Shown in pieces: positions 3,528-54,606 of a stretch of DNA of 64,000 bases. Each line of letters starts with the position of its first letter. The first letter of the stretch is position 1. The notes below the pieces were generated by a model. The model made no database searches and was not told the DNA's origin. It saw only the letters and a list, made by a program, of their open reading frames with translations. This DNA is from Henckelia pumila (lineage: Eukaryota > Streptophyta > Magnoliopsida > Lamiales > Gesneriaceae), in the NCBI RefSeq assembly GCF_033568475.1, contig NC_133122.1, positions 140,561,402-140,625,401 on the forward strand. The letters are read 5' to 3'. A program made the position numbers and the translations under genes.

Positions 3528-3975
3528 TTAAGTTTAATTAAAATTATGATTATTTTAGTGTTATTAAAATTACTCAAGCTACAGAGGTCATAATGGAGTA
3601 ATCTTAAAACCTATAGAATCACAAAAGAGGCATCTTCAACTTTGTAGAAGACAAGAAATTCCAAAAACTTCATTAAGATGATCAAAATAATCAAACATCA
3701 AAATGAAGACAGATTTACTTTTACTATGACCAGCTTGGAGTAAAAATATCATAAGTATTTCATATTTTATCCAAAAGGGGTGAATGAGTTGTCAAAACAC
3801 ATCTACAGACAAAGGGCTGCGTGTTATATGTTTTGTGCAGAAGCAAAATCGGAAGTCCAAGGCATCAAACATGCCAATTAAAGTTGGGTCAATGTATTGA
3901 CATTCAAGGAGATAAGCACCCACCAACTTTACTATTCCATATTTAATGAGTCTTGGACTCTTTCTCTTATTTGGC

Positions 3976-3983
3976 CTATAAAT
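3976..3983 (+). promoter_or_regulatory. TATA box of the 5' LTR
   Basis: TATAAATA in the sequence GGCCTATAAATAGATG is conserved in the 3' LTR at 14079-14086. Its place in the first third of the LTR is where the U3 promoter is expected. Confidence 0.6.
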
Positions 3984-4478
3984 AGATGTGTTGTAAAAGC
4001 TTTGTAGTGTGCAAGAGTGTAGAAAAGTCCTTATTTGTAAAATAAATATTGTGTGTGTGAGAATAAAAGTTTGAGTGTGCATATTTCTCAAGTTCAAGTA
4101 TGAAATTTATTTTATCCTTACTCTTGAGTTTCATGTTCATGGCAAGCTAAATCTTTTTATGTCAAGGTGAAAAGGTTTCATTGTTGGTCAAGTAAGATTG
4201 TTTATATTTTGTATATTCTTTTCTTTTATATTTTTATTTTTACTAATTGATCTTTATTTATAGGTATAATTTTGAATGATTTGTTTTTATCTATTTACAT
4301 CAAATGCTTGGTACCTTGAATGTGGTTACCTTGATTTGTTGTCAAATATGATACAATAAATACTACAATAATTATATACTATAAATATATGTATCTATTT
4401 ATAATAAAGTCATATATATTATTTAGACGATAGCGTGACACTGTCGGTTGTTCTAAATAATATATTGTGATTTGAACT

Positions 4479-4625
4479 AACATTTACTTTCTTGCATCTA
4501 ACTTTTACTTTATCGCAACTAACATTTACTTTTCCGCATATAACATTTACTTTTCCGCAACTAACATTTACTTTCTCGCATATAACATTTATTTTTTCGC
4601 AACTAACATTTACTTTATCGCATCT
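4479..4625 (+). repeat. 21-bp minisatellite, 7 units, inside the 5' LTR
   Basis: Units follow the pattern AACATTTACTTTYYCGCAACT or end in ATAT/ATCT; seven 21-bp units fit exactly, followed by AACATAAAG. The same array is in the 3' LTR (14581-14727). Confidence 0.85.
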
Positions 4626-5224
4626 AACATAAAGTCATGTATTTTATTTAGACGATAGCGTGGCTCTGCCGGTTGTTCTAAATGAAATATTGTGATTTGA
4701 TCTAACATTTACTTTTATGTCAATTTATATTTATGCATTTATATATATATTATGGGTACCATGTATTAAATATCGGCTGATATTAATATAGTGGGAACTA
4801 TATTATATGATATACTTGTTTAAATATTTAATTGTTCTTTTTATGTTTATATTTATTCATCTATATATATATTATGGGTACCATGCATTAAATATCGGTT
4901 AATCTGATATTAATATAGTGGGAACTATATTATATGATATACTTGTTTAAATATTTCATTGTTCTTTTATGTTTATTCTTATTTTAGTTTCTTTTATTTA
5001 TTTTTATTAAGCAATCTTAAATAAACCAACAATGAACCTTTGAAACCTTGACAATTTTATAATTTGTATATTTGAAGTTTCATAATAATATTTCCATCTA
5101 TAATATATCATGCTAAAATTAAACTTACAGCATCCTCTCCGTGGATCGATCTTGTACTCACGAGTATATTACTTGCAGACAACCTACACTTGGGTGAATT
5201 ACAATTTAAGTTGTAGCAAGTTTT

Positions 5225-5241
5225 TGGCGCCGTTTCCGGGG
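5225..5241 (+). promoter_or_regulatory. Primer-binding site, tRNA-Asp type
   Basis: TGGCGCCGTTTCCGGGG is complementary to the 3' end of plant tRNA-Asp except at one base (T where G is expected in CGTTGCC). It lies six bases after the 5' LTR and primes minus-strand DNA synthesis in this family. Confidence 0.85.
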
Positions 5242-5298
5242 AGGTATAAATTAAGTTTAATTTTGTTATTATGTAAATAGTATGTTTTTTTTAATTGT

Positions 5299-7722
5299 AT
5301 GATTAATTGGAGTCGTAAACAAAGTAGTAGACTTGTTCGAGTAACTAAAAATATTTTAAACATGGACGATAATTCTAATAATCAAGATAATAATAATAAT
5401 AATAATAATAATCATCAAGAACATGAACAACCAAGAACACTTAGGCACCATATGAATCCAATAAGAACTAGTACACCATCTTGTTTAGTTTTTCCTCCTG
5501 ATGCATCTAATTTTAATTTTAAGCCACAAGTCATTCAACTTTTACCAAATTTTCATGGCTTAGATTCTGAAAATCCATATTTGCATTTAAGAGAATTTGA
5601 GGAGATTTGCAACACTTATAATGATCAAAATTGTAGCATGGATACTGTTCGATTAAAGCTTTTCCCTTTTTTCTTAAAAGATAAAGCTAAAACATGGTTG
5701 CAAAATTTGAGATCAAGTTCAATAAGATCAATGGAAGAAATGCAACAACAATTTCTAAAAAAAAATTTTCCTTCCCATAGAACAAACTCTTTTAAAAGAT
5801 AAATTACAACTTTTTTTCAAAAATAAGGGGAAATATTTTATCAATGTTGGGATAGATATAAAGAGTTACTTAATACATGCCTGCATCATGGTTTTGAAAT
5901 ATGGAGGATAGTTTCTCACTTTTATGAAGGTTTAATACCTAAAGATAGGCAAATGATAGAATTCATGTGTAATGGAACTTTTGAAGATAAAAACCCAAAT
6001 GAAGCTATAGAATATTTGGAGTCATTAGCAGAAAATGCTCAAAATTGGGATAATATAGGCTCAATTGAACCACCAAGTAAAACCAATAATTCAACAAATG
6101 GGGGTGGTATTTATCATCTTAAAGATGATGTAAATGTTCAAGCTAAACTTGAATCTTTAGCAAGAAAAATCGAGTCATTAGAAATGAAAAAGAGTGATCA
6201 ATTAAAAAATGTTCAAGACACACATGATCATCTTACAAAAAATTGTCCTACTTTGCCTTCATTTAAAGAATGTCTCCATGAACAAGCCAATTATGTTAAC
6301 AATTTTAAAAAACCAACATTAGATCCTTTTTCAAAAACATATAATCCTGGTTGGAGAAATCATATTAATTTAATTTGGAGGAATGATAATAATACACAAC
6401 CTTTACAAAAACCTTTTCACAATAACCAAAGTCATCAAGGTTATGCTCCTTATATCCCACCTCCAAGAAAACATTTTGAAGATGAAATTCATGCATACAT
6501 TCAAAAGCAAGAGTCTATCAATATTCAAAACATTCAATCTATGAATGATTTGAAAGAAACTCTTGCAAAATTTGCATCTGCACTTAATATTCATGAAAAA
6601 GGAAAATTTCCATCTCAACCACAACCTAATCCTAAAAATCAAAATCAAGAAAAATTTGATCAAGTAAAATCTGTTATTACTCTTAGAAGTGGTAAAATAG
6701 TTAATGATCCATATAGTGATGAAAACAAAGATCAGTCAAACTCAAAGAGTAAGGATGAAAATCTTGATACTTTCGAGAAAGATGATACTTTGAGTCCTAA
6801 GATTAAGAAAGTTGATGATAAATTATCTGAAATAATATGTGAGTCAAATAAACATATTCCTTTCCCTCATGCATTAGTTAATAATAAAAAACAAAAAAAT
6901 GATTCTGATATTTATGAAGTTTTTAAACAAGTAAAAATAAATATTCCATTATTAGATGCTATTAAACAAGTGCCTTCTTATGCAAAGTTTTTAAAAGATT
7001 TATGTAATGTGAAAAGAAAATTGCATGTAAAGAAGAAAGCATTTTTAATTGAGCAAGTAAGCTCTATTATTCAAAATAATTTTACCTTGAAATATAAAGA
7101 TCCCGGTTTTCCAACAATTTCATGTATTATTGGAAAAAATAAAATTAAAAAAGCTTTGTTAGATTTGGGAGCAAGTGTGAATTTAATTCCTTATTCAGTT
7201 TATGAAAAGCTTAAGTTGGGAGATTTAAAACCTACATCTGTCACTCTTTTACTAGCCGATATGTCAATCAAAATACCTAGAGGTATCGTAGAAGATGTGT
7301 TAGTTCAAGTCGATAAATTCATATATCCTGTGGATTTTATTGTCTTGGATACACAACCAATAGAAGTACATAACAAAATTCCAGTAATATTGGGACGTCC
7401 ATTTCTAGCAACTTCAAATGCTTTAATTAATTGTCAAAAGGGAATAATGAAATTGTCTTTTGGAAATATGACTTTAGAACTTAATGTGTTCAATTTATGT
7501 AAACAACCAAGTATTAATGAAGATGAAGATGATAATGCAATAGAAACAATTGTGGAAGAAAATAGACACCAAGAAAACTTAAATCAACAATCTGAAGTTT
7601 GTTTAGTGGAAATTTTTGATTCAAAAAATGTTTTTAAATCAAAGTTATTTGAAGAAATTCATGAACTTGAAGAAGTAAAAGAAAATGATCATCCAAAACT
7701 TGAATTAAAACCCTTGCAATAG
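5299..7722 (+). pseudogene. gag: gag-protease region of the Athila-type element
   Basis: One continuous frame is broken by two TAA codons (5800-5802 and 5824-5826). The N-terminal part is asparagine-rich, followed by the Athila gag core (VIQLLPNFHGLDSENPYLHL, then LKLFPFFLKDKAKTWLQNL). After the stops the frame resumes with WDRYKELLNTCLHHGFE, a coiled segment, and SKTYNPGWRNH. The aspartic protease motif ALLDLGASVNLIPYSVY and the later VILGRPFLATSNALI lie in the last third. DLGA in place of DTGA is usual for this branch. Gag packages the RNA and the protease matures Gag-Pol. The frame is lost at about 7715-7725, where it should run into the RT. I start at the first ATG after the primer site; an alternative ATG precedes MDDNSNNQ. 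Confidence 0.8.
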
Positions 7723-7724
7723 AA

Positions 7725-10587
7725 CTAAAATATGCTTTTCTTGGTGAAAATCAAACATATCCTATTGTAATATCTTCTACCCTCTTACCAAAACAAGAAG
7801 AAGATTTAATAACATTACTTAAAAAACACAAAAATGCAATTGGATGGACTTTGCAAGATATAAAAGGTATAAATCCTTTAATCTGCACACATAGAATTCA
7901 CTTGGAAGAAAATGCTAAAACATATCAACAACCACAAAGAAGATTAAATCCACACATGAAAGAAGTTGTTAAAAATGAAGTTTTAAAACTATTAGATGCC
8001 GGAATTATTTATCCAATCTCGGATAGTAAATGGGTAAGTCCAACACAAGTAGTACCAAAAAAATCAGGCATCACTGTTATAAAAAATGAAAAGGGAGAAT
8101 TATTACAAGCTAGGATTCCATCTAGTTGGCGTATGTGCATTGATTATAGAAAATAAAATGATGCAACTAGAAAAGATCACTTTTCGTTACCATTTTTAGA
8201 TCAAATTTTAGAGAAAGTGGTAGGTAATCCTTATTATTGTTTTCTTGATGGGTATTCGGGGTATTATCAAATACCAATATCATTAGAAGATCAAGAAAAA
8301 ACTACTTTCACTTGTCCGTTCGGAACTTTTGCTTTTAAAAGAATGTCATTTGGTTTATGTAATGCCCCGGCTACTTTTCAAAGATGCATGCTAAGCATTT
8401 TTAGTGACATGATTGAAGAATTTGTGGAAGTTTTTATGGATGATATAACTGTTTTTGGAAACTCATTTGAAAACTGTCTTAAAAATTTGGAAGAAGTTTT
8501 AAAAAGATATGAAGAAAAAAATTTTGTTTTAAATTGGGAAAAATGTCACTACATGGTTAAATCCAGAATTATGTTAGGGCATGTCATATCTGAAAAAGAA
8601 ATTGAAGTTGATAAAACTAAGGTTGATGTTATTGCTAATTTACCATCACCAAACACGATCAAAGAAATTCGATCATTTTTGGGTCATGCGGGATTTTATA
8701 AAAGATTTATAAAAAATTTTAGCATAATATCGAAACCAATTTCAAATCTTTTAACAAAAGATGCACAATTTGAATGGACTCAAGAATGTGAAACTGCTTT
8801 TAAAAAGATAATTAATGTTTTAACTACATCACCTATTTTACAACCTCCTGATTGGTCTTTACCATTTGAATTAATGTGTGATGCAAGTGATTATGCTGTA
8901 GGAGCCGTGTTAGGACAAAGAAAAGAAGGTAAACCTTATGTGATCTATTATGCAAGTAGAACCTTAAATAGTGCTCAAATCAATTATTCAACAACTGAAA
9001 AAGAATTACTTTCAGTAGTGTTTGCATTAGATAAATTTCGATCCTATTTAATTGGTTCTACTACTATTGTTTACACTGATCATTCTGCCATAAAATATTT
9101 ATCAAATAAACAAGATGCTAAGCCGAGATTAATAAGATGGATTTTGTTGTTACAAGAATTTGATCTTGTAATAAAAGATAAAAAAGGAAAAGAAAATGTA
9201 TTAGCCAATCATTTATCAAGAATAATTTCTGAATCATCTCAAAATGAAATACCAATAAATGAAAATTTTCCGGATGATCAACTATTTTATGCTACTACTA
9301 TGCCTTGGTTTGCTAATATTGTAAATTTTCTTGTGACAAATAAAATGCTTTCTCATTGAAGTTCACAAGATAAAACAAATTCTTGAAAGAGGTCAAAATT
9401 TTATTGGGATGATCCTTATTTGTTTAAGTATTGTCCTGATCAAATTTTTCGACGATGCATACCCGACAATGAGGTAAGTAGTGTCATTAAATTTTGTCAT
9501 TCTGAGGCATGTGGAGGTCATTTTTGTCAAAGAAAACAGCTGCAAAAATCTTTCAATGTGGATTTTATTGGCCTTCTTTATTCAAAGATACACATTCATT
9601 TTGCAAATCTTGTGAAAATTGTCAGAAAATAGGTTCAATTTCAAAACGAAGCATGATGCCTTTAAATCCAATCATGATTATTGAAATATTTGACAGTTGG
9701 GGAATAGATTTTATGGGTCCATTTTCATTATATTTTGGATTCACTTATATTTTAGTGGCTGTCGATTATGTTTCAAAATGGATTGAAGCAATTGCATGTA
9801 GAACTAATGATCATAAAGTTGTGATAAAATTTTTGAAAGAAAATATTTTTAGTCGATTTGGAATACCTAGAGCTATAATAAGTGATGGGGGGAAGTCATT
9901 TTATAAATAAATCATTTTTTTCGTTGTTAAGAAAATATGGTATTACACATAAAGTTTCTACTCCATATCACCCTCAAACGAATGGTCAGGTTGAACTTGC
10001 AAATAAAGAAATAAAACAAATTTTGAAAAAAAACAGTCAATCCAAATCAAAAAGATTGGTCTTTAAGATTAAGTGATGTATTATGGGCATATAGAACTGC
10101 ATTTAAAACATCATTGGGTATGTCATCATATAGATTAGTTTTTGGAAAGCATTGTCATTTACCTGTTGAAATTGAACATAAAGCTTATTGGGCAATTAAA
10201 GCGTTTAATACTAATTTAGATGATGCATCTAAATTAAGAAAATTGTAATTAAATTAACTAGAAGAATTAAGAAATGATGCATATGAAAATGCAAAGATTT
10301 ATAAAGATAAAACAAAAGCATTTCATGATAAAAATATTATGAGAAAATCTTTTGAAATTGGACAAAAAGTTTTACTTTATAATTCTCGCTTGCATTTGTT
10401 TTCAGAAAAACTTAGATCGCGGTGGTCTAGACCATTTATTGTTAAATTTGTCTATCCTCATGGTTCTGTTGATGTTGAAAATCCTAAAAATAATAATGTA
10501 TTTAAAGTTAATGGGCAAAGACTTAAACCGTTTATAGAAAATGAAGTTCTTAATGAAGAGTTTATGCCTTTATATGATCCAACTTAA
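7725..10587 (+). pseudogene. pol: pol region (RT, RNase H, integrase) of the Athila-type element
   Basis: Domains in order are: the RT start (LKKHKNAIGWTLQDIKGINP, then WRMCIDYRK); a TAA at about 8154-8156 where the family has leucine; the RT core with [14 protein letters not shown] and the active-site FMDD (near 8437); RNase H ([46 protein letters not shown]); and integrase with a zinc-binding part ([10 protein letters not shown], then [10 protein letters not shown] in another frame), the first Asp in WGIDFMGPF, the second in ISDGG, and Glu in [16 protein letters not shown]. The C-terminal stretch (10339-10587) ends LYDPT. At least four frameshifts or stops (near 8155, 9358, 9560-9630, 9890, 10060, 10246) make the product non-functional. 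Confidence 0.85.
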
Positions 10588-10735: not shown

Positions 10736-11287
10736 ATGGATGAAGATATCAAAAAACTTGGTAAATATTTTCCATCTGTTTCTAAAAAAGTTCTGAGAAT
10801 GATTTATGAAGGCAGATGTGAAAGATTGAGAATGCTTATGCAAAAAGGAATCCCGGAGGATATTCGTCTTATAATTGAAGCCAAGGTTCGATTAGGTGGT
10901 GAAGTTTCAAAATTTTTACTTGTTCGAAATATGTCTGAACTAGGTAAAAGTACCTATGCGAAGAAAAGAAGGGCTAAAAGGTTAGATGTTTGTCATAATT
11001 GTGCCAGATGGACTTGTAATAGACAATGCAGATCTTTGGGATATGTTTCCACAAATAGAGAAGATAAAATTGATTTCATTAAGAATGGGCTGAGTAAAGA
11101 GTCATTGGATGATATCTCATTGACTCTTGAGACGCATTCTAGTGGAGATGTACAAGGTCAACTTCTCCGTTTATGGAAACTATTCCAAGCGCAGCGTCAT
11201 GGTGATGGTCTTGGGAATCTGACTAAAAAAGACCCTATTTGCCAATTTATAAGAAAATTGGATGGTAAGCCAACCCTCGACTCATAA
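10736..11287 (+). CDS. Extra retrotransposon ORF, 183 aa, cysteine-rich; resembles plant-virus nucleic-acid-binding proteins
   Basis: This is an uninterrupted frame from ATG to TAA, about 150 bp after pol. Around residues 62-87 is a block Gly-Lys-Ser-Thr-Tyr-Ala followed by KKRRAKRL and cysteines spaced CxxCx4CxxxC (CHNCARWTCNRQC). It continues with an Asn and DFIKNGLSKE. A helical, basic N-terminal half ending in a Ser/Thr-Tyr-Ala-basic block, then a C4-type finger, then a hydrophobic 'DFI..G' segment is the layout of the small cysteine-rich nucleic-acid-binding proteins of carlaviruses and relatives, several of which act in silencing suppression or transcription control. That match is pattern recognition from the sequence, not a search result. 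The last ~80 residues are acidic and amphipathic and have no family I recognise. It is the only intact ORF in an otherwise broken element. Alternatives are a highly diverged env-like ORF or an unrelated captured host zinc-finger protein. Confidence 0.55.
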   Translation: MDEDIKKLGKYFPSVSKKVLRMIYEGRCERLRMLMQKGIPEDIRLIIEAKVRLGGEVSKFLLVRNMSELGKSTYAKKRRAKRLDVCHNCARWTCNRQCRSLGYVSTNREDKIDFIKNGLSKESLDDISLTLETHSSGDVQGQLLRLWKLFQAQRHGDGLGNLTKKDPICQFIRKLDGKPTLDS

Positions 11288-11475
11288 ATATTGAAGGAAA
11301 ACTGTGAGCCACGATCACATCACTGTTTATACGCATGCATGTTATTATTATATATTATTTTTTTTTACTATTTTCATCATTTTGTTCACATCTGTATTCC
11401 TATTTCTGTCTTATTCCTTGTTTTCCTTATAAAATCACTCAACTCTCTCTATATTTTTGAAAAGAAAAAAAAAAC

Positions 11476-12114
11476 ATGATAGGATCTTCTTCACAAAAAT
11501 TGAAAAATATTTGTGTCTTTTGTGGTTCTAATACTTGAAAGAATGAAATATTTGTTGATGCAGCAATTAATTTTGGAAAAAAGTTAGCAGAGAGAAAAAT
11601 TCACTTGGTTTACGGAGGAGGCAATATTGGGTTAATGTGATCTATTTCAACAACAGCTCATCTTGGAGGTAGTCGGGTTTTGGGTATTATTCCTACAGCT
11701 TTAGCTGAAGGAAATATTACAGGTGTTCCGGTTGGGGAAGAGTTGAAAGTTTCATCAATGTACGAGAGAATAACTAAAATGATAGAAAATTCTGATGCTT
11801 TTATTGCCTTACCTGGTGGTTTTGGTACTTTAAAAGAAATTTTTCATCTTGTGTCTTGGGCACAACTTAATATCCATAATAAACCTGTTGGCTTGTTGAA
11901 TATCAATAACTATTATGATGGTTTGTTGACTTTTCTTGATGTAGCCGTGGAACAAAATTTTATTTCAGAAAATTCACGAAGGATGCTCATCTCTGCTTCG
12001 AATGAAGACCAATTAATTGATGATCTCCAAGCTTTTGTTCATCAACCTGATTCAGCTATAACAAAGATCAATTGGTCTCAACCAACTAGTAAGAAAAGAA
12101 AACTGGATCATTGA
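11476..12114 (+). pseudogene. LOG-family cytokinin riboside 5'-monophosphate phosphoribohydrolase, intronless copy inside the retrotransposon
   Basis: The frame from ATG 11476 to TGA 12114 spans 212 codons, the normal length of plant LOG proteins. It contains the N-terminal Rossmann strand (ICVFCGSNT), YGGGNIGLM, the signature PGGFGTLKE with its Glu, and WAQLNIHNKPVGLLN. LOG enzymes release active cytokinin bases from nucleotide precursors in the cytosol and nucleus. Two in-frame TGA codons (11536-11538, and 11638-11640 directly after GLM) break it. Each is a single-base change from a plausible sense codon. In the canonical Met-x-x-Arg-Lys-x-x-Met segment this copy reads MYERITKM, so Lys is Ile. 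The C-terminus is basic (KKRKLDH). Host LOG genes have several introns; their absence points to capture through an RNA intermediate. A short ORF starting at 11680 could still make the C-terminal two thirds. Confidence 0.85.
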
Positions 12115-13503: not shown

Positions 13504-15320
13504 TGTGATGAAACTTAAAATTTGTAATTATTTATATGTTGAAAAGTGTGTTTTAAAATTTAAGTTTAATTAAAATTATGAAGTTGTATTATTTTAGTGT
13601 TATGTGTTTATATTTAAATATTTTACTAAAATGTTGTATTTTACGGTTTGCACAGGTTTGGTAAAAATAAAATTACTCAAGCTACAAAGGTCATAATGGA
13701 GTAATCTCAAAACCTATAGAATCACAAAAGAGGCATCTTCAACTTTGTAGAAGACAAGAAATTCCAAAAACTTCATTAAGATGATCAAAATAATCAAACA
13801 TCAAAATGAAGACAGATTTACTTTTACTATGACCAGCTTGGAGTAAAAATATCATAAGTATTTCATATTTATCCAAAAGAGGTGAATGAGTTGTCAAAAC
13901 ACATCTACAGACAAAGGGCTACGTGTTATATGTTTTGTGCAGAAGCAAACTCGGAAGTCTAAGGCATCCAACATGCCAATTAAAGTTGGGTCAATGTATT
14001 GACATTCAAGGAGACAAGCACCCACCAACTTTACTATTCCATATTTAATGAGTCTTGGACTCTTTTTCTCATTTGGCCTATAAATAGATGTGTTGTATAA
14101 GCTTTGTAGTGTGCAAGAGTGTAGAAAAGTCCTCATTTGTAAAATAAATATTGTGTGTGTGAGAATAAAAGTTTGAGTGTGCATATTTCTCAAGTTCAAG
14201 TATGAAATTTATTTTATCCTTACTCTTGAGTTTCATGTTCATGGCAAGCTAAATCTTTTTATGTCAAGGTGAAAAGGTTTCATTGTTGGTCAAGTAAGAT
14301 TGTTTATATTTTGTATATTCTTTTCTTTTCTATTTTTATTTTTACTAATTGATCTTTATTTGTAGGTATAATTTTGGATGATTTGTTGTTATCTATTTAC
14401 ATCAAATGCTTGATACCTTGAATGTGGTTACCTTGATTTGTTGTCAAATATGATACAATAAATACTACAATAATTATATACTATAAATATATGTATCTAT
14501 TTATAATAAAGTCATATATATTATTTAGATGATAGCGTGACACTGTCGGTTGTTCTAAATAATATATTGTGATTTGAACTAACATTTACTTTCTCGCATC
14601 TAATTTTTACTTTATTGCAACTAACATTTACTTTTTCGCATATAACATTTATTTTTCCGCAACTAACATTTACTTTCTCGCATATAACATTTATTTTTCC
14701 GCAACTAACATTTACTTTATCGCATCTAACATAAAGTCATGTATTTTATTTAGACGATAGCGTGGCTCTGCCGGTTGTTCTAAATAAAATATTATGATTT
14801 GATCTAACATTTACTTTTATGTCAATTTATATTTATGCATTTATATATATATTATGGGTACCATGTATTAAATATTGGCTGATATTAATATAGTGGGAAC
14901 TATATTATATGATATACTTGTTTAAATATTTAATTGTTCTTTCTATGTTTATATTTATTCATCTATATATATATTATGGGTATCATTTATTAAATATCGG
15001 TTAATCTGATATTAATACAGTGGGAACTATATTATATGATATACTTGTTTAAATATTTCATTGTTCTTTTATGTTTATTCTTATTTTAGTTTCTTTTATT
15101 TATTTTTATTAAGCAATCTTAAATAAACCAACAATGAACCTTTGAAACCTTGACAATTTTATAATTTGTGTATTTGAAGTTTCATAATAATATTTCCATC
15201 TATAATATATCATGCTAAAATTAAACTTACAGCATCCTCTCCGTGGATCGATCTCGTACTCACGAGTATATTACTTGCAGACAACCTACACTTGGGTGAA
15301 TTACAATTTAAGTTGTACCA
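13504..15320 (+). repeat. 3' LTR of the Athila-type element
   Basis: Matches the 5' LTR from 13560 onward and probably begins at TG 13504, after the purine tract. It ends TTGTACCA at 15320, followed by the target duplication. The TATAAATA (14079-14086) and the 21-bp minisatellite (14581-14727) are conserved. The exact start depends on whether the first 56 bp were lost from the 5' LTR; the alternative start is 13549. Confidence 0.8.
14581..14727 (+). repeat. 21-bp minisatellite, 7 units, inside the 3' LTR
   Basis: Same unit and copy number as 4479-4625. The equal copy number shows that it predates the insertion. Confidence 0.85.
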
Positions 15321-15325
15321 ACGTG
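15321..15325. repeat. Target-site duplication, right copy (ACGTG)
   Basis: This pairs with 3523-3527. It directly follows the LTR terminus TTGTACCA. Confidence 0.75.
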
Positions 15326-15659: not shown

Positions 15660-17290
15660 TGCAGGTACATATGACATATTAGGTACAAATTCATGCATAA
15701 TAGATAAACTTGATCGTAATAAATTTATGAGGTACAAATGCATGCCTATAGGGTACACTTGAGCTCTTTTATAGGTACAGATCCCGGGAAACCAAGCACA
15801 CTCAGTAATAATTGATCGGTTGTAGATAATTTAATTTTCCAAGTACGCATCATAAGCCTACGAGGTACAGATGCATTAATAATAGGTACAATTTAGCTTT
15901 ATATTGAGTACATATGAGAGTAAATCAAGAACACATAAATGTGTTTAAATATTTGATGAATGTAAATAATTTCATTTCACAAGTACACATACTAAATTTA
16001 CGAGGTACAAATGCATGCTTATTGGGTACACTTGATCTCTTATACAGGTACAGATCCTTGGAAACCAGGCACACCCAGTAATTTTTGACCAGTTGTAGAT
16101 AATTTAATTTTCCAAGTACGCATCATAAGCCTACGAGGTATAGATGCATGAATAATAGTACAATTTAGCTTTATATTCAGTACACATAAGAGTAAATCGA
16201 GAACACATAAATGTGTTTAAATATTTGATGAATGTAAATAATTCCATATCACAAGTACACATAATAAATTTACATGGTACAAATGCATGCCTATTGAGTA
16301 CTCTTGATCTCTTATACAGGTACAGATCCTTGGAAACCAGACACACTCAGTAATTTTTGATCGGTTGTAGATAATTTAATTTTTCAAGTACGCATCATAA
16401 GCCTACGAGGTACAGATGCATGAATAATAGGTACAATTTAGCTTTATATTCAGTACACATGAGAGTAAATCGAGAACACATAAATGTGTTTAAATATTTG
16501 ATGAATGTAAATAATTCCATTTCACAAGTACACATAATAAATTTACAAGGTACAAATGTATGCCTATTGGGTACACTTGATCTCTTATACAGGTACAGAT
16601 CCTTGGAAACCAGGAACACTCAGTAATTTTTGACCGGTTTAGATAATTTAATTTTCCAAGTACGCATCATAAGCCTACGAGGTACAGATGCATGAATAAT
16701 AGGTACCATTTAGCTTTATATTCAGTACACATGAGAGTAAATCGAGAACACATAAATGTGTTTAAATATTTGATGAATGTAAGTAATTCCATTTCACAAG
16801 TACACATAATAAATTTACGAGGTACAAATGCATGCCTATTGGGTACACTTGATCTCTTATACAGGTACAGATCCTTGGAAACCAGGCACACTCAGTAATT
16901 TTAGACCGGTTGTAGATAATTCAATTTTCCAAGTACGCATCATAAGCCAACGAGGTACAGATGCATGAATAATTGGTACAATTTAGCTTCAAATTCAGTA
17001 CACATGAGTGTAAATCGAGAACACATAAATATGTTTAAATATTTGATGAATGTAAATAATTTCATTTCATGAGTATACATAATAAATTTACGAGGTACAA
17101 ATGCATGCCCATTGGGTACACTTGATCTCTTATACAGGTACAGATCCTTAGAAATCAGGCACACTCGGTAATTTTTGACCGGTTGTAGATAATTTAATTT
17201 TCCAAGTACGCATCATAAGCCTACGAGGTATAGCTGCATGAATAATAGGTACAATTTAGCTTCAAATTCAGTACACATGAGAGTAAATCG
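15660..17290. repeat. 272-bp tandem repeat array
   Basis: The anchor AAGTACGCATCATAAGCC recurs near 15840, 16114, 16386, 16658, 16931 and 17204, so successive copies are about 272 bp apart. Each unit also contains AGGTACAGATGCATGAATAA, AGAACACATAAATGTG and GGTACACTTGATCTC, and is rich in the short motif GGTACA. Related ~70-aa frames on both strands are by-products of the repeat. The first unit is more diverged. It lies inside the inferred MULE. Confidence 0.9.
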
Positions 17291-18440
17291 AGAACAACAT
17301 CGAGTATATATGAATGTGAGTCGAGCACATTCATGTATATGATATGTTTACATAAGTATGAAACATGTGATCAAATTCTTTGAAATTACTAGAATTCTTT
17401 ATGGATTGTGCTCTATAGTATGAAATAAGTTTTGAACTTCATTGTAACTAGTACAAGAATGTATATGATATGACTTCATGTAGTGACCACAAATATCCAA
17501 TGCATGTAATGACATGTTGAAATATGTTTCACATACTTAAATATCTGAGTTTTTAGACATGACAAGGTTGAATAATTTCAAATCCAAAGTATTGAATCTC
17601 ACAAGTACACATAATAAATTTATGAGGTACAAGTGCATGCCCATTGGGTACACTTGATCTCTTATACAGGTACAGATCCTTGGAAACCAGACACACTCGG
17701 TAATTTTTGACCGGTTGTAGATAATTTAATTTTCCAAGTACGCATCATAAGCCTACGAGGTACAGATGCATGAATAATAAGTACAATTTAGCTTCAAATT
17801 CAGTACACATGAGAGTAAATCAAGGACAACATTGAGTATATATGAATGTGAGTCGAGCACATTCATGTATATGATATGTTTACATAAGTATGAAACATGT
17901 GATCAAATTCTTTGAAATTACTAGAATTCTTTATGGATTGTGCTCTATAGTATGAAACAAGTTTTGAACTTCATTGTAACTAATACAATAATGTATATGA
18001 TATGACTTCATGTAGTGACCACAAATATCCAATGCATGTAATGACATGTTGAAATATGTTTCACATACTTAAATATCTGAGTTTTTAGACAGGACAAGGT
18101 TGAATAATTTCAAATCTAAAGTATTGAATCTCACAAGTACACATAATAAATTTACGAGGTACAAATGCATGCCTATTGGCATGGGTATACTTAATCTCTT
18201 ATACATGTATAGAACCTTGGAAACCAAGCACACTCGGTAATTTTTGACCGGTTGTAGATAATTTAATTTTTCAAATATGCATCATAAGCCTATGAGGTAC
18301 AAATGCATGAATAATAGGTACAATTTGGCTTCAAATTCAGTTCACATGAGAGTAAATCTAGAACACATAAATATGTAAATATTTGATGAATGTAAATAAT
18401 TTCATTTCATAAGTACACATAATAAATTTACGAGGTACAC
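17291..18440. repeat. Higher-order (~536-bp) repeat units, two copies
   Basis: After the sixth anchor the spacing doubles: anchors at about 17204, 17740 and 18275. Each longer unit is a 272-bp-type core plus about 265 bp of other sequence (GTATATATGAATGTGAG and CTTCATGTAGTGACCAC occur near 17303/17839 and 17467/18007). The two inserts are almost identical, so the whole 536-bp unit was duplicated recently. Confidence 0.85.
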
Positions 18441-18652
18441 ATGCATGATTATTGGGTACACTTGAGCTCTTCTTTAGGTACAGATAATGGGAAACCAGGC
18501 ACACTTAGTAATGCATGCCTATTGGATACACTTGAGCTCTTCTATAGGTACAGATCATGGGAAACCAAGCACACTCAGTAATGCATGCCTATTGGGTACA
18601 CTTGAGCTCTTCTGTAGGTACATATCGAGGGAAACCAAGCACCTTCAGTACA
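18441..18652. repeat. 70-bp tandem repeats, three copies
   Basis: GTACACTTGAGCTCTTCT recurs at about 18456, 18526 (ATACACTTG) and 18596 with 70-bp spacing. The unit is a sub-part of the 272-bp unit (GCATGCCTATTGGG to GGGAAACCAAGCACACTCAG), so a fragment was amplified separately. Confidence 0.85.
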
Positions 18653-19819: not shown

Positions 19820-22664
19820 TCAAAGCAAAATACCACCAATGCTACGACCAGAACGTGTATGCCTCTTCTTTGGTAAATCCACGGATGATTGTACTTCATT
19901 CATCCTCTTCTTCCTGTGAAAATGTAAACACAGTGTATGTCAATAGTGTGTGTCATATAATCTAGGTTAGAAAGCAAAATAACTAAGCAAGCAAGACATA
20001 TAACTGCACTAAACAGTAAGACTGCTTCAAGGAAAAGTAAAAAAAAAAAAAAAACCTATTCTATAGCTTCTTTGCAACTGCATCTATCATGTCCTCGCTT
20101 ACGACAACGACCACACTTTGCAACACGTGTTTCAACCTGGTACGGTATCCTCTTAGTCTTCCTAGGACCTGGCTGACTGTGTACATCAGGAGCATTGATT
20201 ATAGATCCTTCACCAATACTGTCCTCATTCATGTCAAATGTAGATATGTGATTAATAATTCCTTTGTACGCTTGACGATACATATCAATGTGAAAATACC
20301 AATCATAGAAAGAGTAGAGCAACAAAGAATTCTACTTAATAGTTGCACAAGAATGCTTGCACGGTAACATGTTGATCTCTCAAGCTCTACATGAACAACT
20401 CCAATCATTCAAATCAACAGCAAATGATTTATCACCATCAACTACCTCAAATTTCTAACCACAAGATCTGTGAACTATCAAGTTTTGAGATTCAATATAT
20501 GTGCTTGTAAGAGTTTTCTCCTTCTTTGGGTTTAATTCTTGAACCATGGCTAAGGTTGTTTCACAACACTGGTGCATCATATTCATGATTTGAACACGTA
20601 TACGATCCATCATATCCACAATTGGAAGATAACGTGCTAGTTTAACCCAATTATTCCAAGATTCAGCCATGTTATTATTCACGACACCCCAACGTTTTCC
20701 ACGAAACAAAGCATTCGCCCAACTTTTAGGTTCTGAATTTGTAATAAACTTTCTTGCAAGAGGCATGGATTCTAAGATATTGTTAATGTGTTGCATAAAC
20801 TCCTGATGAGAAGGGTCATATGCAGCCTTTTTTAAACACAGAAGACCAATGCTTCTTGATGTGTAGCGGATAGCTTCGCATAACCTACAATAACAACGAA
20901 ATTAATGCATTATTACATCAAAATAAAAAATAATAGACTTCTAAAAATTCATATTGAAAATAATTACTAACCTGCTTCACAAAATTGTCCACCAAGTGCC
21001 TCAAACAATAAGCATGGTGACTACCAGGAAATAATAAATTAACAGCCTTGATGATACCAGAATGTCTATCAAAGAAGAAAGTGAAATTTTTGAATCCACT
21101 GATATGTTGTGAAAGCAGAACACTTCTCAAATTAATACAAAATCATTCCCAGTTACAATCATTCTCGGCATCCACTACAGAATATGCCAATGTAAAAAGA
21201 TCATCATTAGCATCCTTTCCCACAGCAAGTAGGATGCTACCTTTATACTTGTTTTTGATATGAGTGTCATCCAAAAAAATTATTGGTCTACAACCTGTGG
21301 CAAAACCACTAGCACATGCATTGAAACAAATGAATAAACGTTTAAATTTATTAGTTAAAACATCAATCTCGTACTCTGCCACACTTCCTGGATTTGTTTC
21401 TCGAACATTACGACAATACCATCTCAACTTATCATAACAATCCTTTTCAGTACCATAGATATCATGCATCGCTAATTCCTTGCCCTTCCAAATCTTGCGG
21501 TACTCTAATTCTACTCCATAATCCCTACGTATATCTTTCAACAATAAAGATGGACGATAATATGGCTTTGCCCTTAATTTTTCTTTCATAAAATTTGCAA
21601 CCCAAGTTGCATCAGGTCTTGAATGTCCTCTGCCACATAAATTATCTTCTCCACATGTATGTTGTAAATTTCATTTTTGAATACCAAATAGATTGTCTTT
21701 TTTATGTCTAGAAGCATAAATTCTTCATTTGCAATTTATTTCACTACAAACAACAATAATCTTCTTGCTATCATTTTTCTTATAACAAAATGACCGTCGA
21801 GTTGCAACAGAATAATTTTTAATATACGTTCGAAATTCTGTAGCATCCTTAAATGTCTGCCCTTGTCCGCGAATGCAATATAACCAAGATTCAAGTGAAT
21901 TTTGTACGGGGATTTGTTCAACCTCAATATCACTTCTAGATTGTCTATCATCTTCTTCAGCCCTTACGAATTTAATATTCATAAATTCAGAATTCAACAT
22001 ACTACGACAAATGTATTGCACATATATAAAACTACTACTTCGAACTTAAAAATGTAGAAATAATTTCATACGCATCATCATGATTGAAAAAAGAACTTAA
22101 AGATGTACAAACAATTTATTAGCTCAATCATGTTTCATAAAGGACTAACCAACTAATATAGAGTTAAAAAATTAATATTTTGAGTTAAAAGATATATAAA
22201 CAATTTCACCTGCAAATTCATGCTTCACATGAATTACAGAAGCAAACCGATTATAAAAAATCAACACCAATAAGGTCGATCATAGGGCAGAATAATGAAG
22301 GATAAGATGTATTTTACCTCTCCATATTGAATCCTCCTCGAATCTGGTCTTTCAACTCAGCCCTCAATTCGATCACACTCAGCTTCATACACATGTGAAG
22401 ATGGATCATATTACGGACATCATCGTTATCATTTAAGGTAACGTACATATTATGCTGGGGAGCTAGGTATTGTAATGACATAGACAGATGATTTATTTCT
22501 TCATATTTGCTAGACAAGCTCAAAAATATATCCTCCAAACTACATCTACTAAAAATTGAGATGACAAAAAGTTGACCTTTGCACTTACAGGTATCTAAAA
22601 ACGCAAGGTTGGAAGAAGACCCAACTCCAGATTCCATTCTACCGACAATAGGGCTTTTCTCCAA
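19820..22664 (-). pseudogene. MULE (MuDR-type) transposase, broken
   Basis: Reading leftwards from ATG 22664, an N-terminal PB1-like domain (22664-22314) has MYVTLNDNDDVRNMIHLHMC. After an intron, 22021-21725 has the Mu DNA-binding domain (GQTFKDATEFRTYIKNYSV). After a stop near 21680 comes KPYYRPSLLLKDIRRDYGVE and the DDE core: LDDTHIKNKYKG (first Asp), [12 protein letters not shown] (second Asp) followed by HHAYCLRHL, and NNNMAESWNNW (Glu). A SWIM-type finger (SCSC, then LPCKHSCATI) lies near 20350-20430 and a Cys-rich CGRCRKRGHDRCSC ends the 20056-20325 block. A last exon may run from about 19913 to the TGA at 19820-19822 (DLPKKRHTRSGRS). Stops near 21680, 20390 and 20335 make it inactive. 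Catalytic residues are all recognisable. The enzyme would cut and paste MULE ends in the nucleus. Confidence 0.85.
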
Positions 22665-24907: not shown

Positions 24908-26265
<1,358 letters not shown>

Positions 26266-36649: not shown

Positions 36650-38045
36650 ATGGTTTCACGTAGCTGCTTGTATATTGGGGCCTTGACTATGTTCTCATTT
36701 GTAGCCATTGTGATTTCGGGCCCTCTCGATCCAAATTTCTACGATAAAGTATGCCCACAGGCTCTGCCAGCCATCAAACGGGTCGTGTCCGAGGCTCTGC
36801 GCCAAGAAAGGCGCATGGGAGCTTCGTTGTTGCGTCTGCATTTTCACGACTGTTTTGTCAATGTAAATATATACAACATATATATTTTCATCAACATATT
36901 AATATATATGTGCATGCAAGTTCAAAATTTTCATTGATTATATATATATATATATATATTACAGGGTTGCGATGGTTCCATTCTTTTGGACTCGACTTCA
37001 AGCTTCACTAGCGAGAAGTTTTCTTTGGCTAACAACAACTCGGCTAGAGGGTTTGAAGTGGTGGACAGAATCAAGTGGGAGGTGGATAGAGTTTGCGGGC
37101 GTTCGGTGGTGTCCTGTGCCGATATTTTGGCAGTCGCAGCTCGTGACTCAGTTGTTGTTGTAAGTATTACTTGTATATAGGAAAAACTGCAATTTTAGGT
37201 TCTTATTTTTGACAATTTTAATTAGTACTTTTTTTTCGAAAATGCTTACGTGGCACTATACATGTCAGCTCCACATCAGCACTGCATTGATGCCTCATCA
37301 GCGCCACATCGGAAAAAGGACTAAAATTACCAAAAAAAAACAAAGATAACGAACTAAAACTGAAATCTGAAAACATAGAGGACTGATCAAATCGCAAAGT
37401 GCTAAATATACAGGACCAAAATTATTTTTTTTCTCCATATATATTACATGATGAATCATTAATGATGATCATATATATTCATGATATATATTGCAGCTAG
37501 GAGGGCCAGACTGGAAGGTACCGCTTGGAAGAAGAGATTCGACCACAGCAAGTATTACTAGAGCAGACGCAGATATCCCGGCACCATTCATGACTCTTCC
37601 TCAGTTGAAGGACAATTTCAAGAAACAAGGCCTGGACGTGAAAGACTTGGTGGTGCTCTCCGGTGGCCACACGTTGGGATTCTCTCAGTGCCGCGCCTTC
37701 AGAAGTCGCATTTACAACGACACAAACATCGATTCGGGCTTTGCGAGACAGCTACAGGTCATTTGTCCTCGTGTTGGAGGTGATTCCAACCTTGCTCCTT
37801 TGGATCCCACGCCTGCCCTTTTCGACACCAAATATTTTAGTTACTTGACCACGAGGAAGGGACTGTTGCAGTCGGATCAAGCGTTGTTTAACGGAGGTGA
37901 AACGGATTCTCTTGTGAAGGAGTACAGCTCGGACCTTGATGATTTTGCTGAGGACTTCGCGCAGTCGATGATCAAGATGGGTAATATCAAGCCACTGACG
38001 GGCAATCGAGGCCAGATTCGATCGAATTGCCGGAGGGCCAACTAA
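36650..38045 (+). CDS. Class III secretory peroxidase (gene 2), three exons, 318 aa
   Basis: Exons: 36650-36862, 36965-37159, 37497-38045 (957 bp; all phase 0; GT-AG introns). The N-terminus [20 protein letters not shown] is a signal peptide; the mature part begins near [13 protein letters not shown]. Distal His [10 protein letters not shown], calcium site [13 protein letters not shown] before intron 2, [10 protein letters not shown], proximal His [10 protein letters not shown], and C-terminal NCRRAN are all present. Role as for gene 1: wall-localised, haem- and H2O2-dependent oxidation of phenolics. The third intron, which gene 1 has within the SG-SHT codons, is absent here. Intron 2 (337 bp) is enlarged by a repeat. 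An ATG-less upstream extension (TTG, 36644) is not used as start. The coding strand shows no breaks. Confidence 0.93.
37185..37435. mobile_element. Degenerate MITE-like repeat in intron 2 of peroxidase gene 2
   Basis: GGAAAAACTGCAATTTTAGG to GGACCAAAATTATTTTTTT, with CATGTCAGCTCCACATCAGC inside, resembles the repeats at 26480-26770 and 35765-36055 in composition and ends. It accounts for most of the intron. Confidence 0.45.
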
Positions 38046-50657: not shown

Positions 50658-53600
50658 CTAAGATGTTTCTAATAACATCCCAACATTGATCTTATTCAAA
50701 CAATGCTGGAATTTGGTTTTGGCCAGAGGTTTGGTAAGCATATCAGCAGTGTTTTCATCTGTGGAGACTTTTTGTAACTTCACTTCTCCTTGCTCCACCA
50801 TATCCCTTATGAAATGTAAACGAATATCAATATGCTTCGTCCTCTCGCGGTGCATAGGATTCTTGGTTAGGTGTAATGCGCTTTGGCTGTCAGTGTAAAT
50901 CAACACTTATATCTTCTTTCGTAACAACTCAGACAAGATCACTTTCAACCACATTCCCTCCTTAACTGCCTCAGTAATAGCAACATACTCTGCTTCTGTT
51001 GTGGACAAAGCCACTATAGCTTGTAGTGTCCAACTGATCACACATCCATTATAGATGAAAGTATATCCTGTTATGGACCTTCTTTTGTCAAGATCCCCTG
51101 CATAATCAGCATCCACATATCCTACCAATCCTTCTTGAGAATTGCAAGCTCCACCATAAACAAGACCATTACTCTTGCTTCCATTTAGGTACCTCAAAAT
51201 CCATTTAACAGCCTCCCAGTGAATCTTTCCTGGTTTAGCCATGAATCTACTCACTAAAATCACAGCATAAGCTATATCTGGTCTTGTACAGACCATGGCA
51301 TACATTAGGCTGCCGGTGGCATTGGAATATGGTATCCTTTCCATGAATGAAAGTTCCTCCTCTAATTTTGTACATTGATCAGAAGATAATCTGAAATGGT
51401 TTGCCAATGGTGTAGTAACTGCCTTTGATTGAAGCATTCCAAACTTGGTTACAATCTTGTGGAAATAATCTGATTGATCAACATGTAGGAGTCTATCTCT
51501 TCTCTTTCTCCTTATGTTCATACCAAGGATCTTTCTTGCAGACCCTAAGTCCTTCATCTCAAATTCTGATTTGAGATTATCTTTGAGCTTCTTGATCTCC
51601 ATTCTTTCTTCACATGTTATTAGCATGTCATCAACATAAAGTAGTAGATAAATGATGGAACATCCAGGTGCCATCTTGTAATACACACAGCTATCAAGTT
51701 CACTCCTCTTGAAAGAATTACAGATCATGAAGCTGTCAAATCTTCTATACCACTGCCTTGAGGATTGCTTTAAACCATAAAGTGACTTCTGTAATAGACA
51801 CACTTTGGATTCTTGCCCTGGTACCTCAAAACCCTCAGGTTGTCTCATGTATATAGTCTCACTTAGAGTGTCATGGAGGAAAGCTGTTCTTACATCCATT
51901 TGGTCAAGCTCCAGCTCTAGCTCAGCTGTCAAGGGAAGAAGTATCCTAATGGATGTGTGTTTGACCACTGGTGAAAATATCTCAGTGAAATCGACTCCCT
52001 CCTTTTGTGTAAATCCCTTGGCCACTAGCCTAGCCTTAAATCTATTCTGCTCAACCCCTGGAGTCCCCTGTTTGATCTTGAAAATCCATTTGCTTCCTAC
52101 CACCTTTCTGTTTTTAGGAGGCTCCACCAGTTTCCATGTTTCATTCTTCTTTAAAGAATTTATTTCTTCAAACATAGCTGCCTTCCATTTATCCCTATGT
52201 TTGCCATTTATTGCCTCTTTAAAAGAGGCAGGCTCATCTTCATTTAGATCCTCAGAGACATTTAGAGCATAAGCAATCAAATCTGCATAGCCATATCTTT
52301 CTGGTGGTTTGATTTTCCTTCTAACCCTATCTTTGGCAAGTGCATAATCATCCAAATCAGATTTATGATCATGATGATCAGTGTCTTGGTCCATAAATTC
52401 ATCTGTGAATGACTGAGGATGGTTTTCTTGTGATTCCATCATAACATGCTCATTTTGATTCGATGGCTTTTCTGATCCAGCCATGACATCATTTGATGAG
52501 TCATCCAGCATCTCATCTTCCTTGAAAGTAATGTCCCTGCTTATTACAGCCTTTCCACCCCCATTTTTTGAGATCCATATTCTATATCCTTTGGTGCCTT
52601 CTGGATATCCTAGGAATCTACACTTCTTGGCCCTTGCTTGCAATTTTCCCTCATTTACATGAATATATGCAGTACATCCAAATATTCTGAGTGATTGGTA
52701 ATCTCCAAGCTTACCTGACCAAACTTCAGTGGGAGTTTTAAACATTAGAGCTGCAGAAGGGCATTTGTTAATAAGATGACATGCTGAAGCTGCAGCCTCT
52801 CCCCAAAAACTTTCAGGGAGCTTTGCATTGGATAACATGCATCTTACTCTTTCAAGCAATGTCCTATTCATCCTCTCAGCAAGTCCATTCTGCTGCGGTG
52901 TATGCCTCACAGTGAGATGCATTGTTATTCCATTCCTTTTACATAGATCATTAAATTCCTTATTGAGATACTCTAAACCGTTATCAGTTCTAAGCCTTTT
53001 AATTCTCTTCCCTGACTGGTTTTCCACCAAAGCTTTCCAATCTTTGAACTTCTGCAGAGCCTCACTTTTGTGTTTCATGGTATATAGCCATACTTTTCTG
53101 GAGTAATCATCTATAAAGGTAATGAAATACCTTGAGCCTCCATGAGTCTGGTTATTGGCAGGCCCCCATATGCCCGAATGTATATAATCCAATGTACCTT
53201 TTGTGGTGTGCTGTCCCCTTTTGAACTTCACTTTTGTCTGCTTTCCTAGGACACAATGCTCACAAAAATCCAACTTGCTTATCTGATCCTTGCCAAAAAC
53301 CCCTTTTTTGTTTAATTCAAACATTCCTTTCTCACTGATGTGGCCCAATCTAGCATGCCATAATTTCATTTTATCATTATGAGAGTTAGCATTCATAGCA
53401 TAATCATCTGTGCAGGACCTTCCTTCCAATACATATAGTCCATTCTTTCTGATCCCTTTCATCACAACCATCATACCTTTGGTGACAGTTAGGACCCCAT
53501 CCTTGGCTTTAAACTCATAGCCTGATTGTTCCAGCGTTCCAAGGGATATTAAGTTCCTCTTGAGGCCCGGCACAAACCTGACTTCTGTCAAGGTTTTACA

Positions 53601-54606
53601 GATGCCATTCTTGAGTTTCAACTTGATATTCCCTATGCCTTCAACTTGACAAGCTACATTGTTTCCCATAAGAACTTTTCCTCCATCAATTCTTTTGAAA
53701 CAATCAAACCATTCCTTACATGGACTCATGTGGAAAGAACATCCTAAGTCAAGAATCCATTCATTTTCACACTTCCCGGTGGTGACCAGAAGAACATCTG
53801 CACTCTCATAACCTTCTTCAGCCACAGCCACATCTCCTGATGTTGATCCTTTATCATCATGTTTTTTGTTTCTTTCAGGGCAATCCCTTCTAAAATGCCC
53901 TTCTTTTTGACATAAGTAACATCTCTTTTTAAACTTTGTCCTTGATTTTGATCTCGATTTTCCTCTTGGCTTAAAATCCCTCTTATCTGATCTGCCTCTA
54001 ACAAACAATCCCTGGCTTTGATCATCTGTAGTGGTCCCAAGTTTCTTGTTCAATTCCTTCGACCTCAATGCAGCATGTACTTCTTCCAAAGTTATAGATT
54101 CTCTACCATAGATCATCGTATCTCTGAGATTATCATATATATATATCAGGAAGTGATCTTAGTAGCAGCAGGGCCTGATCTTCATCTTCAACTTTGATCT
54201 CAATATTTTCAAGATCTAAAATGATTTTGTTAAAATCATCTATGTGATCTTCGATTGATTTTCCATGTTGCATCTTGAACGTATATAGTTTTTTCTTGAG
54301 GAAAAGTCTATTTGCCAGGGACTTCGTCATATATAGATGCTCGAGTTTCAACCAGATTGCTGCCGCAGATGTTTCCTTCGAAACTTCACGCAATACCTTA
54401 TCACCTAGGCTCAATATCAGGGCACTATGGGCCTTAACAAGAACGTCTTTCTTGTCTAATTCTTTCACCATCTCGGGCATATGCTCATCTCCCAGGAGTG
54501 CATCTTCAACTCCGTTCTGCACCAAGAATGCCCTCATCTTCAACCTCCATAAACCAAAATCATTCTTGCCCGTAAATTTCTCGATATCGAATCGTGTGGT
54601 GCCCAT
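50658..54606 (-). pseudogene. gag-pol: copia gag-pol polyprotein, nearly intact
   Basis: Gag starts at 54606 (MGTTRFDIEKFTGKNDFGLW) with the UBN2-type gag core. The frame breaks at about 54130, where the TA-rich run ATATATATATGATAA replaces a shorter one: four extra bases would explain the shift. The main frame (54116-50907) has the zinc knuckle CYLCQKEGHFRRDC, protease WILDLGCSFHM, integrase HHCC plus DDE (FIDDYSRKVWLY; RTDNGLEYLN; Glu in HTPQQNGLAERMNR), RT with YVDDM, and RNase H start VGYVDADYAGD and TTEAEYVA. An in-frame TAA (near 50907) precedes YTDSQSALHL and KHIDIRLHFIRD, ending at 50658. DLGCS in place of DSGAS in the protease is odd and may impair it. The lineage resembles Tork-type elements but was not tested. 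Confidence 0.9.

Follow-up and report, generated by a model that had tools for sequence, protein, structure and literature searches.

A gypsy retrotransposon family of Henckelia pumila pairs a virus-type cysteine-rich ORF with a LOG-family gene in the env position

The role of ORFs in the env position of plant retrotransposons is an old open question. Steinbauerova et al. are said to have described, in 2011, two Athila-like elements similar to LOGL4. A LOG-type YgdH domain has been found in gypsy consensuses from two Citrus species and also, under a looser filter, from Populus trichocarpa, in a paper that cites Steinbauerova et al. 2011 and gives its results as in line with theirs (PMC9289625), and Athila-lineage gypsy elements carry sense extra ORFs between pol and the 3' LTR (PMC7264820). 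LOG in gypsy elements is already known from print. Extra ORFs that occur family-wide and are proposed to aid the element against host control have been described in orchid gypsy elements, which acquired an RNA demethylase (PMC9289625), and in sunflower Tekay/Athila elements (PMC11728184). The cysteine-rich proteins (CRPs) of carlaviruses have a basic nuclear signal in front of a C-X2-C-X12-C-X4-C finger, suppression of silencing is reported for them (PMC8839810), and the CRP of chrysanthemum virus B induces a host regulator tied to cell proliferation (PMC8839810; PMC9650830 cites the same work).

The family described here resembles the Athila-lineage elements in its LOG-type domain and its sense ORFs at the 3' end. 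It differs in that, in another plant, a pair of CRP and LOG genes is the standing state of a whole family, of which at least 150 copies were scored, whereas the descriptions of those elements, in the portions at hand, include no CRP, pairing, tail, copy-number or selection analysis (PMC9289625, PMC7264820). The orchid and sunflower ORFs belong to other protein families and, as far as the same portions go, form no pair of a virus-like gene and a hormone gene (PMC9289625, PMC11728184). A literature search of incomplete coverage, taking in few subscription papers, returned no report of a carlavirus-type CRP in retrotransposons, of the CRP-LOG pair or of the LOG tail. Judging from sequence, we put at about one in two the probability that this is a gypsy family of Athila type whose two accessory genes, a standing feature of its env position, shift the state of the host cell.

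The element lies in a window of 64,000 nucleotides (contig NC_133122.1, positions 140,561,402 to 140,625,401, forward strand), by which we mean the whole stretch of DNA analysed; its features are collected in Table 1.

Table 1. Coordinates of the element's features, as positions in the window.
Feature	Position	Strand	Basis
5' LTR, without about its first 160 bases	3554..5222	+	repeat families D4/D5, LTR-LTR alignment; exact end judged by eye
Primer binding site region, TGGCGCCGTTTCCGGGGA	5222..5255	+	directly after the 5' LTR
Broken gag and protease region, ORFs 5299-5802 and 5953-7722	5299..7722	+	PF03732, PF13650
Broken pol: reverse transcriptase, RNase H, integrase	7851..10587	+	PF00078, PF17917, PF00665, PF17921
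CRP, intact 183-aa virus-type cysteine-rich ORF	10736..11287	+	ORF list, Pfam, relatives
TATA-like box and leader upstream of LOG, putative internal promoter	11428..11475	+	TATAAAA in 60/60 full spacers
LOG-family gene, intronless, from its ATG; two in-frame stops in the window copy	11476..12114	+	PF03641, alignment to other copies
3' LTR	13504..15324	+	alignment; both ends judged by eye (TG...CA)

Gag, protease, reverse transcriptase, RNase H and integrase, identified with Pfam, follow one another between the LTRs in gypsy order, which is the Ty3/gypsy layout. The primer binding site is, we assume, of the tRNA-Asp type, a type linked to Athila. Assigned on domain order and on the TGGCGCC primer site 3' of the 5' LTR rather than on a reverse transcriptase reference tree, the Athila label fits the element. 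Neither a chromodomain nor a further RNase H family was among the Pfam hits of the six ORFs scanned; a second, archaeal-type RNase H marks Tat (PMC6317226). Alignment of the LTRs (3565-5219 against 13668-15321) gave 97.8% identity over 1655 bases. Plant DNA accumulates substitutions at 0.7-1.3e-8 per site and year, and at these rates the insertion is roughly 0.8-1.5 million years old. Each LTR also holds a 21/42-bp tandem array (4477-4630, 14579-14732) followed by a 127-bp duplication.

An earlier note on this DNA had described an intact 183-aa ORF and a full-length LOG-family copy, both on the element's own strand between the end of pol and the 3' LTR, in an element that is itself dead. This description holds. 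The CRP frame is open and lies above both Pfam cut-offs given below, the LOG copy runs over 639 bases on the same strand 188 bases further on, and, because gag and pol are split over several ORFs while LOG carries two in-frame stops along with a changed PGGxGTxxE signature, the window copy is dead.

The window CRP scored 27.2 bits against PF05515 (Viral_NABP, curated cut-off 23) and 24.2 bits against PF01623 (Carla_C4, curated cut-off 20.9), and each of the two models matched 20 of 22 aligned CRP relatives (E <= 0.01). A basic, nuclear-signal-like patch, KKRRAKR, directly precedes a C-X2-C-X4-C-X3-C finger, and this finger is kept in 54 of the 55 open family copies. Among the 22 aligned members 32 positions are invariant, C94 and C98 among them. 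C86 and C89 are near invariant, K76-K81 vary little or not at all, and a conserved C-terminal block lies around LGNLTxKDPVCQFxRKLDGK. Passing both cut-offs and having a basic patch before a four-cysteine finger, the element CRP is like the cysteine-rich proteins of carlaviruses and allexiviruses. In contrast to carlavirus CRPs, whose finger has the longer spacing cited above (PMC8839810), it has about 182 aa with a longer, conserved C-terminus, and it sits in an LTR element. The comparison with carlavirus-type proteins in the earlier note is borne out by the Pfam scores and the patch and fails on finger spacing and C-terminus. By its sequence, the element CRP is not a standard carlavirus CRP, though it may work like these proteins or share their descent. 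AlphaFold models of the CRP were poor (mean pLDDT 56 and 68 in two runs), and Foldseek with the better model returned no viral match at E <= 0.001 and no PDB match at E <= 10; a garlic virus nucleic-acid-binding fragment ranked fourth among viral matches, with an E of 6.4, and was not counted. Viral contigs, scanned with alignments of both proteins, yielded no confirmed relative. A lone insertion of a carlavirus fragment was considered and ruled out, since the CRP relatives are element genes and the finger spacing is different.

The CRP could instead be a structural, nucleocapsid-like RNA-binding protein with no part in host control, LOG alone acting on the host or being a later addition. None of the forward frames of the window gag-pol shows a zinc knuckle, so the RNA-binding finger of the element may come from the CRP; the window gag is broken, however, which makes the absent knuckle weak evidence, and with its basic patch before the finger the CRP resembles plant-virus regulators, not retroviral knuckles. 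We regard a nucleocapsid role as the main rival to an effect on the host cell, if a rather unlikely one. The roles may also be mixed, with the CRP serving replication and LOG serving host-cell state.

The LOG gene lies above the cut-offs of PF03641 and TIGR00730 (117 bits against PF03641 for its 3' part, 11680-12111); of the proteins with a solved structure, Arabidopsis At2g37210 (PDB 2a33) is its best relative. Against the NCBIfam equivalog NF058542 for the cytokinin enzyme, a model that names prokaryote proteins, it scored 122.9 bits with a cut-off of 300. The gene is 97.5-98% identical in DNA to seven other copies over its full length; six of these are open throughout and the seventh is stop-free and one codon short. 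PGGFGTLEE is exact in 43 of the 46 open family LOGs, and as an enzyme LOG is catalytically plausible. It shares with plant LONELY GUY enzymes the two domain models, the PGGxGTxxE signature and 52% identity to an Arabidopsis LOG entry. It differs from them in being intronless, in falling into a clade of its own and in a basic C-terminal tail, with LxLxL in most relatives, that replaces the ordinary end. A TATA-like box, TATAAAATCACTCAACTCTCTCTA, lies 48 bases 5' of the LOG ATG; it may serve LOG as an internal promoter or be a remnant of the captured gene.

We searched the plant's own genome (885 Mb; the four largest contigs seen were 183-234 Mb) with both proteins. The CRP search returned 504 first-look candidates. 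Scoring the best 150 gave identities of at least 95% throughout, and 127 of these copies have no internal stop (counted by hand from the rows). With the 3' part of LOG there were 423 candidates, and 145 of the best 150 had no internal stop; because both lists hold best matches, intactness is biased upward. The family thus has at least 150 scored copies, a figure that best-match lists do not fix from above. Matching the two separately made lists gave 117 same-strand CRP-LOG pairs, 931-962 bp apart and always in the order CRP then LOG, the evidence for these covering the 144-residue LOG part of the query. Reading the other 33 CRP copies revealed a full LOG in 27, a partial one in three and none in three; of the LOG copies with no listed CRP, 11 of 33 were read, and nine had a full CRP, one a partial CRP and one none. 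The 78 loci read reduced to 74 distinct copies once four that shared a place had been removed. In these copies, chosen for similarity and so biased upward, CRP was open in 55, LOG in 46 and both in 36. LOG was open in 15 of 40 copies picked by their CRP and damaged or missing in 25, and CRP was open in 24 of 34 picked by their LOG.

Because both genes recur across the genome in the same order and spacing, chance is excluded, and the copy counts rule out a single accidental insertion. The earlier note had proposed that an ancestral element may have carried the two genes as a module; the pair is neither lacking from other copies nor confined to this insertion, with 117 + 27 of the best 150 CRP copies carrying LOG, and copies with both genes intact exist, as the biased sample shows. 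Constant adjacency was found in nearly all family copies read and breaks down in three of the 150 CRP copies and in a contig from another source (L079, below). CRP plus LOG is confirmed as the standing state of the family, more strongly than had been claimed. The near-universal pair in the sampled copies, together with relatives in other plants, therefore has the look of a kept toolkit and not of a passenger.

Signs of selection differ between the genes. For LOG in copies picked by their CRP (34 rows with LOG), the ratio of replacing to synonymous changes (N/S) was 1.02 among singletons (23 synonymous, 83 replacing, 5 stops), 0.98 among variants in 2-3 copies and 0.19 among those in at least four (6 synonymous, 4 replacing). 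Singletons differed from the variants in at least four copies with p = 0.012, for 10 shared variants; set against all variants seen twice or more, they gave p = 0.28. For CRP in copies picked by their LOG, N/S was 0.65, 0.52 and 0.45 in the same three classes, which was not significant. Over all copies, where the LOG and CRP sets include copies picked by the same protein, the values were 1.57, 0.48 and 0.18 for LOG, 0.67, 0.56 and 0.24 for CRP and 0.75, 0.78 and 0.25 for the integrase end. Pairwise pN/pS within the family was only moderate (CRP 0.42, LOG 0.48, integrase 0.67). Decay after insertion is near neutral, and variants that pass through replication seem to be filtered; within the family the case for constraint is a fair one in LOG and a weak one in the CRP. 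Between plants the CRP is by contrast clearly constrained, as estimated against L079 (dN 0.236 and dS 0.695 by NG86; 0.203 and 2.521 by YN00). The comparison of dN and dS that the earlier note had suggested for each ORF came out accordingly in part: it is borne out for shared LOG variants and for the CRP between plants, and not for the CRP within the family.

CRP relatives in the database amounted to 229 proteins. The best 120 listed have 54-78% identity and mostly about 182 aa, and named sources among the matches listed are Populus x canadensis, Xanthoceras, Acer, Rhamnella and Orobanche. Among 360 fetched proteins gag-pol sequence occurred in two: a Rhamnella protein (P0082) has 111 residues of an integrase end fused to the CRP, and in a Xanthoceras protein (P0122) 38 residues from a gypsy protease region (55% identity, E 1e-9) lie between parts of LOG. 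The integrase end of the first is 70% identical to that of L079, a 3.3-kb contig in which a 466-aa gypsy integrase frame is followed by a CRP. L079 is filed under a Candidatus Nomurabacteria assembly, yet it is plant-like and is probably plant contamination in a public prokaryote genome. No LOG was detected on it by tblastn with eight LOGs (best E 0.22) in the 983 bases left beyond the CRP, and, as far as this one contig reaches, the pair is not obligatory, a point that also favours the nucleocapsid role for the CRP discussed above.

LOG relatives were collected by a database search with an intact family LOG (best 120 of 8000 scored), and 33 were placed on a tree with the family's own. Thirty-one LOG rows form one clade with support 100/99, and outside it stand 24 ordinary LOG3-like proteins, Arabidopsis At5g11950 and a bacterial LOG. 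The tree carries a warning of some long branches; adding P0186 and P0219 (both Xanthoceras) and P0208 lowers support to 90/88. Several clusters of LOG relatives are large, for example 327 members in Pterospermum, and many-member clusters are what a transposon gene would show. Both genes might be passengers, of no use to the element, that a master copy captured once and multiplied along with itself. The family copies are only a few percent diverged, so that the pairing in this genome could be due to one recent master, and the CRP has no significant filter within the family; against this, CRP relatives in other plants are in frame at the identities given above with dN well under dS, and the LOG relatives, which form an old clade, have preserved frame and signature. 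Passengers are therefore very improbable, an explanation already strained.

For the pairing across species, a CRP (P0017) and a LOG (P0184) from the same source lie on contigs that are both 4511 long. The LOG groups with Populus LOGs on the tree (99/97), and the CRP resembles, by eye, the Populus CRP P0019. Equal lengths above 3 kb coincided by chance in 0.8% of trials (jgi rows, lengths jittered by about 10%). Two other lengths, 905 and 2128, are likewise equal between CRP and LOG contigs; the first (P0098 or P0065 with P0204 or P0138) leaves no room for both genes, and the second concerns P0093 and P0131. Therefore coincidence also arises by chance, and we regard the 4511 pairing as suggestive. 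Both gene families are present in Populus and Xanthoceras. The two genes might also have arisen separately in different elements and come to lie side by side through a common permissive 3' region. The CRP without adjacent LOG in L079 speaks for this, as does a cross-species pairing that consists of one equal length and of joint presence in those two genera, but the LOG rows of the 31-row clade share one origin on the tree and the order CRP then LOG is fixed in the plant's own genome; we consider separate origins improbable.

The tail sets the element LOGs apart. LxLxL occurs in 98 of the 120 best element-LOG relatives and in none of 120 ordinary LOG3-like proteins, and a basic patch, scored as a pattern in the last 30 residues, in 107 of 120 against one of 120. 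These lists are best matches to two queries and the shares describe the lists, not all LOGs, the ordinary types sampled being 120 database LOG3-like proteins and, beyond them, At5g11950. Typical ends are KKRKLDLTLRL, KKRKLNLTLSL and KKLRLDLSLRL, the layout of a nuclear signal plus an EAR repressor motif. The window family keeps the basic patch and lacks LxLxL, 43 of its 46 open copies ending KKRKLDH, and ends without LxLxL in the window lineage and four relatives are KKRKLDH, KKRKLDD, KKRKFM and KKRKIL. LxLxL needs three changes on the LOG tree, which fits one gain and two losses. With the motif absent from the window family, co-repressor docking cannot be essential. LOG might have been retained for its scaffold and tail, that is for nuclear co-repressor docking and not for cytokinin; the skew of LxLxL towards the element relatives is what this would lead one to expect, yet 43 of the 46 open family copies have an intact catalytic signature and the window family lost LxLxL while showing signs of LOG constraint, so that we hold it to be more improbable still than separate origins. 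Populus entries named LOGL10 (P0151, P0173, P0192) end in the basic-LxLxL tail and probably belong to transposons, their annotation being that of host hormone genes; annotators should beware that LOG entries of tree genomes, such as these, probably include transposon genes.

Under the reading that the two genes shift the state of the host cell, the CRP, a small zinc-finger protein, would bind nucleic acid in the nucleus and, by analogy with carlavirus CRPs, dampen silencing or turn host genes towards cell growth. The basic patches of CRP and LOG could bring both to the nucleus; LOG, taken there by its tail, would have active cytokinin made in the same cell and in most lineages would also dock a TOPLESS-type co-repressor through LxLxL. 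Under their joint action the host cell would come to divide, be less silenced and resemble a meristem cell, and in this state new element copies could reach the germ line. A wider claim is more tentative, and we would bet somewhat against it: that in a retrovirus-like lineage of plant retrotransposons, present across several eudicot families, env gave way to an effector module made of a plant-virus-type zinc-finger protein and a captured cytokinin enzyme with a nuclear signal and, in most hosts, a co-repressor tail. If true, selfish DNA would reprogramme the hormone state and silencing of the host cell from within, like pathogen effectors, and transposons would create the cell state they need through hormone control and virus-type proteins. 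Since these env-position ORFs are recognisable, occur in several plants and are open in many copies, their role is now testable.

Elsewhere in the window, a copia element at 50907-54606 on the minus strand has an open 1069-aa pol frame and a 157-aa gag frame, and a MULE transposase-like fragment lies at 21143-21589, also on the minus strand (PF10551, below the curated cut-off). Two plant peroxidase gene parts (25846-26265 and 37491-38045) are probably exons of neighbouring genes. A 273-bp tandem array (15717-17296; 5.8 copies, 93% matches) starts about 390 bases 3' of the 3' LTR, and a 70-bp array of similar sequence follows at 18441-18650; both look like satellite DNA.
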